64,000 bases of DNA from Arenicola marina (lineage: Eukaryota > Annelida > Polychaeta > Arenicolidae): NCBI GenBank assembly GCA_964019135.1, contig OZ025248.1, forward strand, positions 47,733,670 through 47,797,669. The letters run 5' to 3'. The position numbers and the translations under genes were made by a program. The notes below the pieces were generated by a model, which saw nothing but the letters and a program-made list of their open reading frames with translations, had not been told where the DNA came from and did not search any database. Positions 42,501 to 57,500 of this stretch are shown piece after piece (positions within the stretch are counted from its first letter, which is position 1; the number at the start of each line of letters is the position of its first letter).

Positions 42501-45500
42501 TAAAACACATTTTCACCCCATTATTCATATCAACCGTATTCAATGAGTTTCAATAGCTTTCCTAACCTCGATTTTTCAAGTGGATCTCTTATCTTAGCGT
42601 GTTCTTTGTAGCTTTCTTAATGTTGATCTTTCAAGCGGACCTTTTACCTTCTTATCGTCTTCTGTGTAGCGTTCTTAACGTTGATTTCTTCAGTGGACAT
42701 TGCACCGTCTTAGTGTGTTCTTTATGGCTTTCTTAACGTTGATTTCTCTTTCAGTTCAAGATGAGCAAGCAGACCAGTCTGAACAGCACGGTGTCACTTG
42801 ATGGCGCTATGAACGTGACCCAAGTCCGCCGGGCATCTACTATGGATGACCTTGGCTTTGATGACTTCGGTATGGGAGATACGAATGCCTCCATGGACGC
42901 TGAAAACAGTCGAGACGCTGAAATTGATGACTTCGACATGTCCACCTCTGAATCGCAGGACTCCGAGACCTTATTAGGAGCGAAAAACGGTCTGTTAAAG
43001 CATATTTAGATAACCTGCACGTCACTTCGCTATTGTTTTCATAATAGTTGATGCCAACGAAAGAGGCTACTGGGATTTTACTAGAAAATTCAAATTTGAA
43101 TTTACTTCGCTCCCAGTGGTGTAAAATATTGTCTTGTAGAGTGGACGACGTTTGTAGGTCAGCGATTCGCCAAAATGTATCTGTATGTTATTAGGTTAAC
43201 ATTAACATATTTCTGTATTACACTTGTTGAAAGGGTTCCTATTCCTTGCCATTTGGGGATATTTGTTTTCACTATATTCCCGATTTAAAGTATTTGCAGT
43301 TAGCTATGTATATATAAACAGAACGCCTGGATTACATGGATTAAATCATTCCTGATTCATTGATGATGAACGAGTTCACCATTATTCAGTCCATTACAAT
43401 TTGATCCCTTGGCTTTTTGATCTGGGGATTGTATCAGATTATTCAGTGCATTAGTTTGCTGTAGTCTCCGCATATACATACCAGTAGGATGAAACCTAAT
43501 CCACCCAGTTAGCTCGTAGGACAACCTGGGTTTCACATCTGTCCATATTGTGTGTATTAGCTGTTGTTGGATCCATTTTTATTCCGTCATTTCTATATTA
43601 TGCAATTTAGGTTTCGAAAGTCCTTTCTCCGCCGCCGTCTTGAATGAGCGAGAGACTTGCCAGTTGGAGTTGGTAGACCTGCTCTGCCGATTCTGTGGTC
43701 ACAACCGACTTGACCCGGCGGAGGGCAGCTTGCCGCCGGTAGACACCCTTCCCGTGGTGCAGAGAATTGTCAACCTCGTCAGTCCCGATGAGGGATGGGA
43801 CGCAGCCAAACCATGTGACCTGCAGATGGTGAGCGGCCGTCGTCACTTAACCCTGGTGCTCTGTACTTAACCCTGGTGCTCTGTACTTAACCCTGGTGCT
43901 CTGTACTTAACCCTGGTGCTCTGTACTTCACTCTGGTGCTCTGTACGTAACCTTGGTGCTCTGTACTTAACCCTGGTGCTCTGTACCTAACCCTGGTGCT
44001 CTGTACGTAACCCTGGTGCTCTGTACTTAACCCTGGTGCTTGTACTTAACCCTGGTGCTCTGTACGTAACCCTGGTGCTCTGTACTTAACCCTGGTGCTT
44101 GTACTTAACCCTGGTGCTCTGTACTTAACCCTGGTGCTCTGTACTTAACTCTGGTGCTCAGTACGTAACCTTGGTGCTCTGTACTTAACCCTGGTGCTCT
44201 GTACGTAACCCTGGTGCTCTGTACTTAACCCTGGTGCTTGTACTTAACCCTGGTGCTCTGTACTTAACCCTGGTGCTCTGTACGTAACCCTGGTGCTCTG
44301 TACTTAACCCTGGTGCTCTGTACGTAACCCTGGTGCTCTGTACTTAACCCTGGTGCTCTGTACTTAACCCTGGTGCTTGTACTTAACCCTGGTGCTCTGT
44401 ACGTAACCCTGGTGCTCTGTACTTAACCCTGGTGCTCTGTACGTAACCCTGGTGCTTGTACTTAACCCTGGTGCTCTGTACGTAACCCTGGTGCTCTGTA
44501 CTTAACCCTGGTGCTCTGTACGTAACCCTGGTGCTTGTACTTAACCCTGGTGCTCTGTACTTAACCCTGGTGCTCTGTACTTAACCCTGGTGCTCTGTAC
44601 TTAACCCTGGTGCTCTGTACTTAACCCTGGTGCTCTGTACGTAACCCTGGTGCTTGTACTTAACCCTGGTGCTCTGTACGTAACCCTGGTGCTTGTACTT
44701 AACCCTGGTGCTCTGTACTTAACCCTGGTGCTCTGTACTTAACCCTGGTGCTTGTACTTAACCCTGGTGCTCTGTACTTAACCCTGGTGCTCTGTACTTA
44801 ACCCTGGTGCTCTGTACTTAACCCTGGTGCTTTGTTATGTATTGTAATCCTGGCATCATTTGTAATATAACAAAATAAACTGTTTTTTTGATGTGCCATA
44901 AGTTTTCTATTGTAAGAAATAAAATGAAATGTTGCTGCTTTAGGCCACTTTTGTGTACATAAAGGCTAAACGGGGTCAATATATATAAGAATAAGGAGCA
45001 ATATTATAGGCTCGACCGTCTGTATAGATCCTGTTAACTACGCTCCTGACCTGTAATTATACAGCCGGGTGTGCCTTTGATCGTAGCCGCCGTTAATGCT
45101 CAAGGATTTCCTATTTAGTCAAATTTAATTTGGTTCAATATTTGTGTGGAAGAGCGGAATGTAAATATCAAGTGTTATTCGCAGGTAGCGCAGCAAAATG
45201 TTCCACGTTGATACCATGAATATTGACGCCTTTTACGGAGGCATTCACTTGGTGGTGGATTCTGTTTCATTTCTATTATTGAGTGTTGATACATTGTATT
45301 ACGCAGATGGTTCACATCACCGAGGGATTAAGCAGCGAGGATCGCTGCGCCAGTGATGAGGAAATAGAAGGCTTACAGGATGCGCTCAGGTTAGAACAAC
45401 TCACTTGACTCTAGTCAAGTGAGTTGTTGGCAGTTATATAGCATTTTGTACTGTTTTCCAATTGTGAATAAATATTGTTTACACACAGAAAGTTTGCTTT

Positions 45501-48500
45501 GCAATTAATGTATAAATGATATACCAGGATATAGCAATTAAGCATCCATTAATTTTAATGGAACTCCCTAAATTGTAACAGAATTTGTGATAAGCTCAGT
45601 TACAGGAGATTATGAGTGAGCGTCATTTGTATGGTACACATGTGTGACTTTGACAGATCGATGTGCAAACAGCACAAGAATGACCAGGCAGCCTGTTGTG
45701 TGGCCATCAGGCTGCTGTCCAGACTGGTGACACAGCTGAAGGCCGCTGGGGGCGCCACTGTGTCGGCGTCCAGGGCGGAAGCCAGGGACATCGCTCTCCA
45801 CCTGCTCAAAGTGTTTTGGTTTGTGATTTATACTTCATTATGGCTTGATCATTTAGTGGTCGGGATGTCTGTGCAGCGGCAAAATGTTTCTTTATTATCA
45901 ACATATTATCAACTTGTTTTTGGAGCATCGGTTTGAGTGGCATGAAATAATTGGGTTACACCAGCCAAACGTTACGCACTTTAGCAACTATGTTGGCAGA
46001 CGAGTCTATGACATACGTCAATTCCAAAGAATCGTCGGCTCCGCGTGTCTAACTGTTTTATAAGTCACACTTAAAACAAAGGTGACGATATTAAATGCTT
46101 CAAAATGGGTTTCTGGTTAAGTCAGGATCCTTACATGTTCTCTTTCTGGACACCATTCCGTTCTCATTTGTGCCAGATATATAATTAAATTTACACACAG
46201 GAGATGATTACTGTCTGAGCGGATGACAACTATTTACAGGAAGTTTTCTGTCGATGGTCAGTACGTCCACAGTACACGGTTAGCCCTGGCTGGGTGCGTC
46301 CACGTCATCATTGAGGTGAGTGGTCATGTCCGTTGTTACTGTGACTCTGTAAGGGCCAGCTATGTGTCACCCTGCCCCCAGCGCTCCCGACGATTAAAGC
46401 GAACGTGTTTGCCAACCAGTTCTCATCCACTATGCATCGTACCCAGATACTTATCTAAACGTTCTTGAAGATATGCTTGGTAACGCCCCAATGCTCTTAT
46501 CTCTGATCCCACCCCAGAACGACCTGTTTGTTAACGTCCCAATGCTCGGATCTCTGATCCCACCCCAGAACGACCTGTTTGTTAACGTCCCAATACCCTG
46601 ATCTCTGATCCCACCCCAGAGTGACCCTGTTTGTTAACGTCCCAATGCTCTGATCTCTGATCCCGCCTCAGAACGACCTGTTTGTTAACGTCCCAATGCT
46701 CGGATCTCTGATCCCACCCCAGAACGACCTGTTTATTAACGTCCCAATGCTCTGATCTCTGATCCCACCCCAGAACGACCTGTTTGTTAACGTCCCAATG
46801 CTCTGATCTCTGATCCCACCCCAGAACGACCCTGTTTGTTAACGTCCCAATGCTCTGATCTCTGATCCCGCCCCAGAGTGACCCTGTTTGTTAACGCCCC
46901 AACGCTCTTATCTCTGATCCCGCCTCAGAGTGACCCTGTTTGTTAACGTCCCAATGCTCTGATCTCTGATCCCACTCCAGAACGACCCAGTCTGTTAACG
47001 TCTCAATGCGCTCATCTCTGATCCCACCCCAGAGTGACCCTGTTTGTTGACGTCCCAATGCCCTGATCTCTGATCCCACCCCAGAACGACCGTGTTTGTT
47101 AACGTTCCAATGCTCTGATCTCTGATCTCACCCCAGAACGACCTGTTTGTTAACGTCCCAATGCTCTGATCTCTGATCCCACCCCAGAACGACCCTGTTT
47201 GTTAACGTCCCAATGCTCTGATCTCTGATCCCACCCCAGAACGACCCTGTTTGTTAACGTCCCAGTGCTCTTATCTCTGATCCCGCCCCAGAGTGACCTT
47301 TTTGTTAACGCCCCAATGCTCTTATCTCTGATCCCGCCTCAGAGTGACCCTGTTTGTTAACGTTCCAATGCTCTGATCTCTGATCCCACTCCAGAACGAC
47401 CCTGTCTGTTAACGTCCCAATGCGCTTATCTCTGATCCCACCCCAGAGTGACCCTGTTTGTTGACGTCCCAATGCTCTGATCTTTGATCCCGCCTCAGAG
47501 TGACCCTGTTTGTTAACGTCCCAATGCTCTGATCTCTGATCCCACTCCAGAACGACCCTGTCTGTTAACGTCCCAATGCGCTTATCTCTGATCCCACCCC
47601 AGAGTGACCCTGTTTGTTGACGTCCCAATGCTCTTATCTCTGATCCCGCCTCAGAGTGACCCTGTTTGTTAACGTCCCAATGCTCTGATCTCTGATCCCA
47701 CCCCAGAACGACCCTGTTTGTTAACGTTCCAATGCTCTGATCTCTGATCCCACCCCAGAACGACCCTGTTTGTTAACGTCCCAGTGCTCTTATCTCTGAT
47801 CCCGCCCCAGAACGACCCTGTTTGGTAACGTTCCAATGCTCTGATCTCTGATCCCGCCCCAGAGTGACCCTGTTTGTTAACGTCCCAATGCTCTGATCTC
47901 AGATCCCACCCCAGAACGACCCTGTTTGGTAACGTCCCAATGCTCTGATCTCTGATCCCACCCCAGAGTGACCCTGTTTGTTAACGTCCCAATGCTCTGA
48001 TCTGTGATCTCGCCCCAGAGTGACCCTGTCTGGTAACGTCCCAATGCTCTGATCTCTGATCCCACCCCAGAACAACCCTGTTTGGTAACGTCCCAATGCT
48101 CTGATCTCTGATCCCACCCCAGAACGACCCTGTTTGTTAACGTTCCAATGCTCTGATCTCTGATCCCGCCCTAGAGTGACCCTGTCTGGTAACGTCCCAA
48201 TGCTCTGATCTCAGATCCCACCCCAGAACGACCCTGTTTGGTAACGTCCCAATGCTCTGATCTCTGATCCCGCCCCAGAGTGACCCTGTTTGTTAACGTC
48301 CCAATGCTCTGATCTCAGATCCCACCCCAGAACGACCCTGTTTGTTAACGTCCCAATGCTCTGATCTCTGATCCCGCCCCAGAGTGACCCTGACGGTCTG
48401 TGGAGTCAATGGAGTGTGCAACGTGACGGGGAAGGAGACGCCAGGACCACGAGGCGCGTCGTCGATTATTTATTCCCCAAGTTGCTAGGAGACCGTCACC

Positions 48501-51500
48501 ACGCGGTTCGTCTGTGCGTCGCGCGGCATGTGAAGTGGTAGGTATACAGATCTACATGATGTCGATTTCTTTCAGGGACAAAGAAACTGCTCATATGAAT
48601 GTGCGCTTATACGATGAACTCGTTTTAGTTAAATATTTTTATGTATTAAAGTGAAATGGTGTATTTAGATCCTTATTGCGTGGATTGCAATATGTAATTG
48701 CGTTACATAAATAGTTGTTGCCAGACTGGTGCATCTTGTGTGAGAAAGGATGGCGTTCTTGTGTACTAAGTCGTAAAAATGCGGACATTGCTGCTGCTTT
48801 TGTCATCTGACAACGCGTCCGTTGAACATTTGTCGAGCGCTTATCGGGTACAAAATATTCTACCAGGAGGCAGTTTTTCTGAATTTGGAAAGTGTCAAAA
48901 TTTTATTTAATACAATTTCAGGATTAGGAATCAAGGCAGTATTTATAAGTCACGCGTAATTTACGTGTGGCTTCTGGCAGACCGATGGTGCAGTTACTGG
49001 CCTCATGGCCATTGTATATATAGTGTATATATTGCTAATACTATCGTATCTTATTGAAATGACACGTACAACAACATGTGTCAACATTCTGTTTAATACA
49101 ATTTCTGGATTATTATTCCGACCACTACGGACCGAAGAGGCTACAACGGAAAGGCGTCTGAATTGCCTTCCCGTCTAATTGGCGTATCATCCAGCTTTGA
49201 CTGACACCGCTTGGAGAGTATTGGAAAATGTTGATGGAGGGCTCCATCTTCCTCCATATTGTCATAGTAAGCTTTTGTATTGTCTTTTCGCAGCATGTTT
49301 CAAAGGCAGATTGAGTCTGGCCTGGAGCCGGTTTCCGGAGAGGAACAGAGACGTCGCTTTGATTGCGTCCATGCAGCCTTGTCGGCCCTGATGACCAGCC
49401 AGGTGGGTCTGGTCGTGATGTGTATAATGTACTTCATATTTAACACGGGGCCGGCGCGATAGCTTAGTAGGCTAGAGCGCTCGCATTGAGTGCTCTGGCC
49501 ACAGGAGAGCCTAACGGCACGTGGATCGGTGGTTCGAGCCCTGCGGTGGCCATGTCTGTGGGGTCGCAGGATAAAGATCCCATGCATTTTTTCGCAAAGA
49601 ATAGGGGGATACCCCCGGGGCCATGGCTGCACTCTCCCTTCCTTCTCCCATTGACGCGATATGACCAAAAGTGGTTAAAGCGTCCTGAATAACCAGCCAA
49701 CCAAACACATTGAACACCAAATTACTGTCCCTGTGCAGTCACAGGCGCTCATGCCAACAGTTACCCGTGCATATGGGCAACCAGACGATTCTCATTGAAC
49801 CATTGACTGTATAATCGATGACTGCCAAAGGTTTTTATCATAATATAATGTCCTGAGCCCGCATTTGTAGTCTTTAATTCAAGCTACGCAAAGCTTTAAA
49901 AGCGGCTTCTGGAGAGAGCCTATCCGGCAAAAAATCTGAACTCCGTGACATCTTAATATAGCCAGCTCTCCTTAAATGTACCGGTAAGTCAACAACATAG
50001 CGTTGGGATTATCAACACTGCGGCCACCTATTTGAGAGGCTGGGAGGAATACGCCTGTCTCGCACTGAAGAAGTTCCGGAGGATTATGGATACAGCCCCA
50101 CGTTAATAGCGAGCGCAAGCGAGCTCCTAAAGTAACATGCATGCATATATGTAGTAAAATCCAAGTCCATTTCAAGCATAGGACTTTCATTTTGTGTAAC
50201 AGGCCCCATGAGACTTGTTACTTAGTTCATTGTGAAAAACATGTAATTTTACGCCATTCGCCAGTTAGAAGAAGTCTAGTTGACCTGCTTTCGCACACTG
50301 TCACTGTCGAGTGTCCTAATAACAAGTGTCAAGAATATACCGTCTGAACTATTGAAAGTATTTGTCACTGTCGGGTTGTGTGACTGACCCCTAGCTGCAT
50401 GACCACAATGTGTAGGCGGACCAGGGGCAGGGTTGGATCCAGGGAGGGGGTGGGGGATCCCATTGGGGGTACATGTGAAAATCGTGCTTGTAGGGGTGGT
50501 GGAGGGTTCACGTAAAATATTATGCTCTGGCAGCGATTTAAGCGTAAAATGGAGATGCACACAAAAATTGGCAGAAAAATTGTACGTGTAGGCTGGAATG
50601 GTGAAAGGTTCACTTGAAATGTTATGCTCTGGCGGCGATTTAACATGTTTAACCGTTAAAAAGAGGTGCATACATATATTGGTGGGTTCATATCTAAGAT
50701 GGCATCTAATTTGCATTGAGAAATGACATCCTCTCTCTTAAAAATAATACAGGCCTACATTTCCATTTGTTTTGACATGCAGTTTATGTATATCCATCTC
50801 AATTACAGAATTACACTCCCATAGTTTCCATTGCCTTTTCGAGTACCAATCTTGTGGAGTTATGCATCATGAATGGATAAAAATATTAGCGATTATTATA
50901 GACGATCTGTACTAGAAGTCTGCTACACTTGCCATATTCTCGCCAGATATACCCAGGTAATTCGGTCCTTAATTTAGTCTAGAACTTTTTTCTATATTTC
51001 AATCCGAAAATAGCTGCGCTCACCCTTTTAGGTTTTACCTATATGGCATATTAGATATGATCAATATTGTAAAATGATGTCCATTTGCTTTGTCCGTCTT
51101 CAGGATAGAGATACAGCGGCAGAGGGAGTGGATGAGCAGGTGAACAGGACGAGCGGCCTGTTGCTGACGCTGGCCAATCTGGCCTGTAGCAGCCCGGTGT
51201 GTGAGAAGAGAACCGTATTCGCCATCTGTCGGATGGCCAAGGAACATCTCTTGGACGTGCGGCTCGTCAAACAGGTAACTCATCATTTTGCTTTACGAGA
51301 AAACGTAACAATGTATTTTGCGCGGCTCGTCAAACAGGTAACTTTTTATTTAGCTTGATGAGAAGCGGTAGCATTGTAATTGTTTAAACTTATTTCGGCC
51401 TTTTTTTTGTTACATGAGTTACTTCGATTTCGTCGTAATGCAGCGTTCTTATATCACGCGGCAGAATTGTTTCGTGTTTAATATATTATGCATTTTGGGC

Positions 51501-54500: not shown

Positions 54501-57500
54501 CTAAAGCCTATCTGTGACCGACGGAGCTTCCCGCAGTCGTCACTTCGATGACCTGTCTAGGTTTATACTCACTGGATGCCTAGATTAGCGTTTCAAATCC
54601 AGTTTCTCAAACCAGAGCTGGTCGTGGCGAGCCATTCCCACTCGCGCGAGACGTGCCCATTCCCTCTTTTGGAATGCTAGATCCTTCCAAGAATTCGAAT
54701 CGATACCGAAAGCGTTTATGTCACGCTTACAAACATCTTTAAACCTGAGCTTTGGCCGTCCAGTTGACCTTAAGGTCGCCGTAGAGCACATCCTCTGGAA
54801 TGCGTTCATTTTGCATGCGATGAACGTTCCTAAGCCAACGAAGACTTGTTTTACAAGAGCAAGAATGCTTGGTAGGCTGGCCCTGGCTAACAGTTCATGA
54901 TTTGTTACCTTGTCTTGCCAAGATAAGCCTAAAATGTTTCGCAAGCAACAAAAATGGAAATTGTTCAATTTCCTATCTTGGCCACAATATGTAGTCCACG
55001 TTTCACCGCCATACAACAGGCTACTTAGAACACACGCCCCGTAGATTAGCATTTTGGTGCAAATGGTTAGTTTTGAATTTTTCCAAGCACGTTTGTTTAA
55101 CCTACCAAAGGTGGTGGCTGCCGTCCCAATGCGAGTGTTTATTTCCTCGTCCAGGGATAGATTATCTGTAATGGTACTTCCCAGGTAACAAAGCTTGTTA
55201 ACCACCTTCAATGGCTTATTATTCAGTGTAATCCCTGGCGGTGTGATAGCCCCTTGGCTCAGCACGACTGTTTTATTATGTTATAATCCCCTCGTAAGTT
55301 ACGCACGAAAAGGGCGTTTTCATGTTAGCCTCACCAGCTCGTTGTGGTGGTGCTCATGATGAAGAAATCGTCTTCAATCTAATTTTAGCACTTTCTTAAT
55401 TAAAAAAACTCACTTTTTGGGTGACTACATTTGTATTTTGAACCCGATAATCGCTCGACACATCTTCCACTTAGCGCTAAGTCTAGTGGCGTAGCCTAAG
55501 TGGTGATTATGAATACGGCCCCTGGCCATCAAGGGGGCTGTTTTAGTGACCGTGGGGCCCATGGCTTTATTAATTCCAATGTACATGGCCCGCATATTAC
55601 CTCTGTCAGCAGCGTCCTGGATCTCCTCGCAGAGGCTTATCCAGTATTGGTTGCCGCAATAATGCGCAGTTTTTTGGTCCTATGTGTCTCTCGCCAGCCA
55701 CAACTGTAACAGAGACGGCTTGTTGGGTTTAGGTTGTGATGTATGTGTTTTCATTCTTGGCTTCGATAACTGGTTCCATCTCTGCTGAGTGAGTGGCGAG
55801 CCAATCCTTGTTGTCAGATTTCATTTTCCCGAACGCTGTCATCGCAGCGCCGTAAATGGCAGAGCGCACTGTTTCCCAGCATTCTTCTACATCAGAATAT
55901 TGATTAGTTGGTTTTTAGTTGATTAGCTGGCATCGTCTGCTCCAACTTCTGCAGAAATTGACGACGTTTGTCGCTCTCCTGCGTGCCACGTGTATCAGTA
56001 GTGTTGTTTTGTAGTTTTGGCACCACTCAAGGTGAGGCCATTGGCATCACCTAGATCTGGGCCGTCTCCTAAACACACGAGCGTAACACTGCAGATTGCG
56101 ATACCAATCGCTCGCTCGTCGGGAGTAAAGTAATGATTACCCCTAGGCAACTCGTCATCTTGGTTTCATACATGTGACGTCATCTACACACTGCCCCACG
56201 CCATCCGGAACGACAACACAATATGGTGGTTCCTTGTGACGTCCATGTGACCCGACCCCGGTCCTTCTACTTTCTTGGTTACCTCAATACGGAACCATGC
56301 TGACATTGTTGTTATTTCAGGCGCCACACCCTCCACGTCAATACCCTGGATTGGCGTCCATTTAAAACAGTGTCTCATGGCCATTGTTTTTTCTCTTTAT
56401 CCGTTGCAGACTCTGTGGGCCGACGTTTGACAGCACGTTGGTGGTGGTGAGCTGCGAGGTGTTGGGGATGGTGTGTAGAGTGGCACTGGAGTGCTGCACC
56501 GAGGTAGGCAGCAGTACTAACCCGCCGTGCACCCGTGCACTGAACTCACCGCTAGGCTTCATTTCAACAATCATCGGGTCTGCATTGGGTCCTTGAATTG
56601 CGTCATGACACCTTCCCCGGACAAACCTTTTTCGGGGTCGAACCCTTCACTTGTTTGTCTGCAGCTTATCTCGCTTACCAACTGAAGGTATGCAGAACCA
56701 CTTAAGAGTCCCAGAATGGTTTGTATTGCACGCCCCTCTTATTTATATCTTAGACATGGCGTATTATGTTATTATGTTGCTTAGGTTTTATTGAAATCAT
56801 AGGGTTCTCGGCCGGGCAGAGATTTCCATTTTAGGAATGAGGGGCGAGTCATGTGGACATGTGCAGCTCTGGTTATTAAGTTTATTGGTTCTGACGATAT
56901 GGTGAGGCAACGTTAGAAGCTGTATATATCCCACACCCTAAAGTGTAATATTGTCCAACGAGCATCAAGGCTCTCCAGCAGATTTAAAAATGGGTTATGG
57001 CGCATTTATTTTACAACCCTCAATACGCTGGCTTCTCGTAACTAAAGCCAGAAAGTACTGCGATAGAACACAGCCCTGCAATAAACTGCGCTTATCCGCC
57101 TTTCACCCACTTTTTCACCGAGTTTCTCATCCTCCGCGGCTGTTTCGAGGAACCGTTTCGAGAGACCCCCTCTGCACATTCTTGAGATACTCTCCGCATC
57201 ACCTTACCAGGCCAGGGGCCGGCGCGACAGCTCAGTGGGCTAGAGCGCTCGCATTGAGTGCTCTGGTCACCTGAGAGCCTAACGGCACGTGGGTCGGTGG
57301 TTCGAGCCCTGCTGTGGCCATGTCTGTCTGGTCGCAGGATAAAGATCCCGTGTCTTTCTTCGTAAAGAGTAGGGGGTTACCCCCGGGGACATGGCTGCAC
57401 TCTCCCTTCCTTCTCCCATTGACGCGATATGACCAAAAGTGGTTAAAGCGTCCTGATTAACCAACCAACCAACCTTACCAGGCCTGTCTCTAAGTTATCA

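Follow-up and report, generated by a model that had tools for sequence, protein, structure and literature searches.

The window described here (the whole stretch of 64,000 nucleotides, whose position 1 is position 47733670 of contig OZ025248.1 of the polychaete Arenicola marina) was analysed along with its flanking DNA, 20 kb on the upstream and 120 kb on the downstream side (204 kb in all), positions above 64000 lying downstream of the window. It holds part of a gene for ATM, an assignment already made in an earlier note on this DNA, which is borne out by protein comparisons: a search of the Protein Data Bank with the exons in the window returned four matches, all of them ATM, and the peptide encoded across exons 19 and 20 found ATM in the best four of its eight matches (E about 5e-8), the remaining four being engineered GFP proteins at E 0.026 to 0.5. 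This peptide (...CVHVIIE/SDPDGLW..., the stroke marking the exon junction) aligns with human ATM, CLKTLLEADPYSKW, free of gaps over the junction (phmmer E 5.4e-8). A spliced protein-to-genome alignment over 73 kb, made by our own program from human ATM as the query with splice matrices of a generic kind, lays out 59 exons between 33569 and 106620 and agrees on the borders of exons 19 and 20; the exon numbers used below are those of this gene model, in which the uncertain exons include 13, 14, 18, 26, 31, 33, 35, and 36.

The 3′ end of intron 19 is a minisatellite that runs over the intron-exon border into exon 20. Tandem Repeats Finder (TRF) reports a 52-bp period with 37.0 copies, 90% matches, and a score of 3013, and when the array is cut at the acceptor it falls into 37 units, of which 30 are 52 bp and seven 51 bp long. 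The earlier note had described an array of about 37 copies whose last unit supplies the acceptor of exon 20, and to this extent its description stands; however, it had the array end exactly at the exon with about 11 exon bases in the repeat, whereas the array ends 10 nt into exon 20 and the exon bases within it number 10 (AGTGACCCTG). The unit thus spans the border, and in all 37 units [C/T]AG is followed by A[A/G][C/T][G/A]ACC, the trinucleotide being CAG in 36 units and TAG in one, with one unit reading AACAACC after it. A border lying outside the repeat unit would have overturned the reading of the array as a set of acceptors, and the protein alignment with human ATM puts the border inside the last unit. 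The features of the locus and of the other arrays discussed below are collected in Table 1.

Table 1. Exons, splice sites, and tandem arrays in and around the Arenicola marina ATM gene (window coordinates; exon numbers of our own gene model)
Feature	Position	Strand	Unit length	Copies	Basis
Degenerate array stopping 7 nt short of exon 15	42592–42747	+	58 bp	2.7	TRF, by eye
Array starting 16 nt past the exon 16 donor	43845–44835	+	20 bp	50	
ATM exon 19, ending ATTGAG/GTGAGT	46240–46315	+			Sequence, spliced alignment
Minisatellite across the intron 19/exon 20 border, reaching 10 nt into the exon	46477–48392	+	52 bp	37	TRF, unit table, unit alignment
36 decoy acceptors, one per unit	46477–48330	+			Unit tables, matrix scores; branch-point reading by motif only
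Predicted true acceptor of exon 20 (CAG), within last unit	48380–48382	+			Protein junction with human ATM, spliced alignment
ATM exon 20, 155 nt, phase 0, SDPDGLW..., then GTAGGT	48383–48537	+			Protein and spliced alignment
Array at exon 32, starting 1 bp past the junction, without donor copies					
Array at exon 35/36 border; model splits the border inside it			88 bp		
Donor array, exon 41			47 bp	23	
Donor array, exon 50, repeating exon end and donor	90537–98975		41 bp	205.8	TRF
Acceptor array, exon 52	101039–102537		27 bp	56	
Donor array, exon 53			51 bp	4.5	
Acceptor array, exon 54			61 bp	7.3	
Array repeating end and donor of ABC-transporter exon	128555–128843	−	68 bp		
Array repeating exon end and GTGAGT donor, asparaginase-like exon	177275–183282	−	53 bp	113	
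Array repeating apparent acceptor of the same asparaginase-like exon, upstream of it	with the preceding array, within 177275–183996	−	64 bp		

The exonic part of the unit bears on where the repeat came from. Its Asp-Pro codons match an Asp-Pro at the same place in human ATM, so that the right end of the unit is old coding sequence and the repeat most likely copied the exon, not the reverse; with the border lying inside the unit as well, the exon as the source of the repeat is the best reading, and growth by tandem duplication across the border, which the earlier note had proposed, is well supported. It is extremely improbable that a pre-existing satellite was instead inserted beside exon 20, its likeness to the start of the exon being fortuitous: although tandem arrays are dense here (they take up 37% of the span of ATM and 27% of the whole 204 kb, against 17% and 9% of two other 10-kb stretches), the exon part of the unit is conserved coding sequence, arrays at other exons likewise include the border of the exon at which they lie, and a 264-bp piece of the array, searched against the 867-Mb assembly by a method that scores the best candidates only and skips very common words, gave 10 matches, all within the focal array. 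A search with exon 20 and its downstream flank gave 40 matches, only one of them full-length and the other 39 short and in the intron flank, so that no second haplotype of this segment was seen in the assembly. Genome-wide, a loose acceptor pattern occurs at 881 forward and 872 reverse places and its reversed form at 365 and 434, counts that are not used in any conclusion here.

The units vary in the manner of ordinary minisatellite turnover. Variants within the units are partly linked, CCCACCCCAG followed across the border by AAC and CCCGCCCCAG followed by AGT being common types, a three-unit pattern recurs in the middle of the array, and mean unit identity, which is 0.90 between neighbours, peaks at lags 3 and 8 (0.918), with identical units at lags 1, 3, 7, 8, 9, and 10. 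Unit 8 equals the last unit across the columns compared, and length polymorphism of the array is to be expected. Since unit variants are spread along the array, homogenisation could reach the coding sequence of exon 20, whose first codon (within 48383–48392) is AGT (Ser) and for which conversion to AAC (Asn), as in the other unit type, is conceivable. The same variation weighs against the array, or its copy number, being an artefact of assembly, which would otherwise be a natural concern with a single assembly and with tandem arrays as a usual place of error; with units that differ at this level of neighbour identity, and with several unrelated arrays built alike, a pattern scarcely to be expected of an assembler, we regard such an artefact as very unlikely.

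Each of the 36 units upstream of the last one carries a decoy acceptor arranged like a 3′ splice site: TTAAC and CTGAT stretches that resemble the branch-point consensus, a pyrimidine-rich stretch, [C/T]AG, an exon-like A[A/G][C/T][G/A]ACC(C)TG, and then a stop. The units therefore hold splice signals able to act as cryptic sites, and the earlier description of them as near-identical acceptor copies holds. The AG is kept in 36 of 36, and only three of the 36 are identical to the true site across positions −20 to +3. Scored with a matrix built from 46 other ATM acceptors, the true site reaches 4.5 bits against a decoy mean of 5.2; 32 of the 36 decoys equal or surpass it, a level also attained by 11.6% of 3167 further AGs in introns, and when a generic matrix is used instead the number of such decoys is 14 of 36. 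Local sequence thus hardly separates the true site from the decoys and does not favour it. The possibility that a weak true acceptor is the point of the system was considered and dropped, because the two matrices disagree: by the gene matrix the exon 20 acceptor lies below 40 of the 46 acceptors of the training set (below 34 of 46 on leave-one-out), whereas by the generic matrix it is mid-range, with 22 of 57 other acceptors lower and 35 higher, and no claim is made about its strength. Two further ideas found no footing in the data. RNA structure hiding the decoys is not indicated by folding 523 nt of the array (z 0.68; 79 of 100 shuffled versions equal or surpass it), and recursive or dual-specific splicing does not fit a unit that lacks AGGT and in which [C/T]AG always runs into AA or AG.

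When the reading frame of exon 19 (phase 0) is carried into any of the 36 decoys, it hits a stop before the array ends, after five codons in 29 cases and after 10 to 27 in the other seven, so that use of any decoy would bring a premature stop. The earlier note had argued from the length of the unit that a decoy would usually shift the frame, and it is true that 52 is not a multiple of three and that 27 of the 36 decoys shift the frame; nevertheless, the nine that lie at multiples of three are stopped too, and since all 36 decoys stop regardless, the indivisibility of 52 by three is idle. These stops, together with the intact AGs and the decoy scores given above, would suit a system in which the decoys are used appreciably and form a poison sink, stop-containing RNA rising and ATM protein falling as copies are added. 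Such a dependence on copy number has a parallel in the 37-bp repeat in intron 7 of human factor VII (F7), which adjoins the true donor, repeats it in every unit, and comes in few copies, and whose polymorphism is linked to expression, copy number being said to affect it; it is like the exon 20 array in repeating a splice site in each unit and unlike it in that the site is a donor and the copies are few. Against an appreciable use of the decoys, the AG is invariant in all units but so are 25 of the 52 columns, so that its conservation is uninformative on decoy use or selection, and selection on the decoy AGs, which was considered, receives no support. At exon 54 of the same gene the AG is lost in all six counted decoys (CCG in each), and the gene therefore holds both states, decoys kept at exon 20 and decoys lost at exon 54. 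The amphioxus arrays of similar anatomy are reported to leave regular splicing undisturbed (PMC3087553, PMC3902484). A regulatory role through copy number is possible, the intact decoys being the sole point for it, but the tuning of ATM splicing that the earlier note had suggested is not supported, and a poison sink seems to us rather improbable.

The exon 20 array is not peculiar to intron 19; the same arrangement recurs along the gene. The ATM span contains 19 non-redundant arrays (at least 2.5 copies and at least 60 bp), 27,001 bp in total, of which eight have a model junction inside them or within 5 bp and ten within 20 bp, the remaining nine lying at distances of 30 to 4924 bp from any junction. 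If an array fell at random on array-free intron (37,085 bp), it would be expected to land so close in 1.5% (5 bp) and 6.1% (20 bp) of cases, which gives binomial P values of 1.8e-10 and 3.6e-8; these are post hoc values, computed after the pattern had been noticed, and concern one gene and our own gene model. Removal of the focal array leaves 7 of 18 (P 5.1e-9) and 9 of 18 (P 3.2e-7). The array at the exon 35/36 border is the eighth of the junction arrays, and its case is ambiguous, since the donor may equally well lie in the first unit (79547); it was for this reason left out, along with the focal array, in a control count, which still stands at 6 of 17 (P 1.3e-7).

The arrays at these junctions repeat donors as well as acceptors, and the outcomes of using their decoys differ, the counts given here covering only the decoys caught by our search patterns. 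The largest, at the exon 50 donor, contains 138 matches to AGGTNAGTG; the first and true donor reads GTCAGT, while the array has 119 instances of GGTGAGT and 38 of GGTCAGT, and all 99 caught decoys, about half of some 206 units, lie behind a stop. The same holds for the 22 of 22 caught at exon 41 and the four of four at exon 53, one of which is without GT. At exon 52, by contrast with these stopped decoys, the 37 caught (of 56 units) are all in frame and open through 504 codons, so that their use would lengthen the protein in nine-residue steps. The donor array of exon 53 and the acceptor array of exon 54 together occupy most of the intron between them (103316–103993). Near the focal array, the degenerate array before exon 15 shows by eye a CTTAAC-like stretch, a T-rich stretch, and an AG in its units and is perhaps an older, degenerate acceptor array, and the donor consensus is absent from the unit of the array past exon 16.

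Junction arrays are also present in neighbouring genes. Outside ATM, 30 arrays of the 204 kb were scored for donor-like units, and the edges of five, chosen for such units, were inspected; three proved to be junction arrays (those with 53-, 64-, and 68-bp units), and the two at 145502 and −8926 were without a coding flank by eye. The exon at the 53-bp array matches a portion of the asparaginase C-terminal domain (Pfam E 1.8e-13), with a 60 kDa lysophospholipase as its best match in the Protein Data Bank, and the exon at the 68-bp array matches an ABC-transporter transmembrane domain (Pfam E 2e-14). Elsewhere in the window, the minus strand at 54585–55280 has an open frame that by eye resembles the end of a reverse transcriptase from a LINE-type element.

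Arrays of this anatomy belong to a known kind, the 'mirage' minisatellites of amphioxus, which have been described in Adh3, in troponin C, and in the globins BflGb6 and BflGb9, with similar repeats in PGBD5 (PMC3087553, PMC3902484). They are described as minisatellite-like duplications of intron-exon borders, both acceptors and donors, have unit lengths of 10–72 bp (Adh3) and 150–160 bp (globins), are considered a possible source of new introns, and show haplotype and somatic instability (PMC3087553, PMC3902484). The likeness to the exon 20 array is close, the unit spanning the border and carrying exon bases and the AG or GT signals being present in many of the amphioxus copies that are described; the differences are the annelid host, the many junctions of one gene that are hit here, and the size, since the two haplotypes described for BflGb6 have 6 and 3 units against 37 at exon 20 and about 206 at exon 50. 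Two other systems share less with the array. In UBC and VCX3A tandem repetition likewise multiplies splice signals, through dual-specific sites in which AGGT serves as donor and acceptor and, in UBC, with coding units (PMC10809524), whereas the acceptor here is continued by AA or AG and forms no AGGT. The metallothionein repeats of earthworms (mean monomers of 178 and 181 bp) are, like the present ones, large intronic tandem arrays of an annelid, but they lie within intron 1, and their description does not mention a splice site in the repeat (PMC12783039). A search of the open-licence literature for border-spanning arrays gave, among the matches listed, no annelid case, the cases found being those of amphioxus, and the recurrence in an annelid is the point of note.

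We consider it likely that the exon 20 array is a junction-spanning ('mirage') minisatellite, that its decoys are mostly silent, and that it is a by-product of duplication anchored at the junction. On this account, the final 42 nt of intron 19 plus the 10 nt beyond the border, about 52 bp in all, would have been duplicated in tandem; the copy joined to the exon body would have kept its function as acceptor while the others turned into intron, and unequal exchange or slippage would then have brought the array to 37 units. Expansion would have cost little, because the copy furthest downstream is always the one attached to the real exon. As the sites are nearly indistinguishable by local sequence, the choice among them must depend on position and exon context, and the spliceosome most likely picks the copy beside exon 20 through exon definition, since that copy alone precedes the exon body and its donor. 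Since decoy use inserts an early stop, mis-spliced RNA would be non-productive and is probably degraded. On this view the array would have no regulatory part to play.

An array of decoys beside a single true site is a natural experiment on splice-site choice. The recurrence in a distant phylum, at many junctions of a single gene, and with arrays as large as about 206 units hints that tandem duplication is drawn to splice junctions, an idea that can be put to the test by scanning annotated genomes. We would give roughly even chances to the broader view that splice junctions are preferred birthplaces of minisatellites throughout the genome of this annelid, many genes carrying tens to hundreds of copies of their own splice sites and the machinery routinely selecting the copy joined to the exon body though its neighbours are locally as good. 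Caution is also called for in gene prediction, as repeat masking would here delete sequence that contains several of the exon borders. As a side observation on the same assembly, the mitochondrial contig (15,942 bp) reads, on one strand, nad4L-nad4-(tRNA-Val, large rRNA)-nad1-nad3-nad2-cox1-cox2-...-nad6-cob-atp6-nad5, with nad6 below the Pfam cut-off and nad5 named by eye. This is the order common among annelids and is unlike that of chordates.
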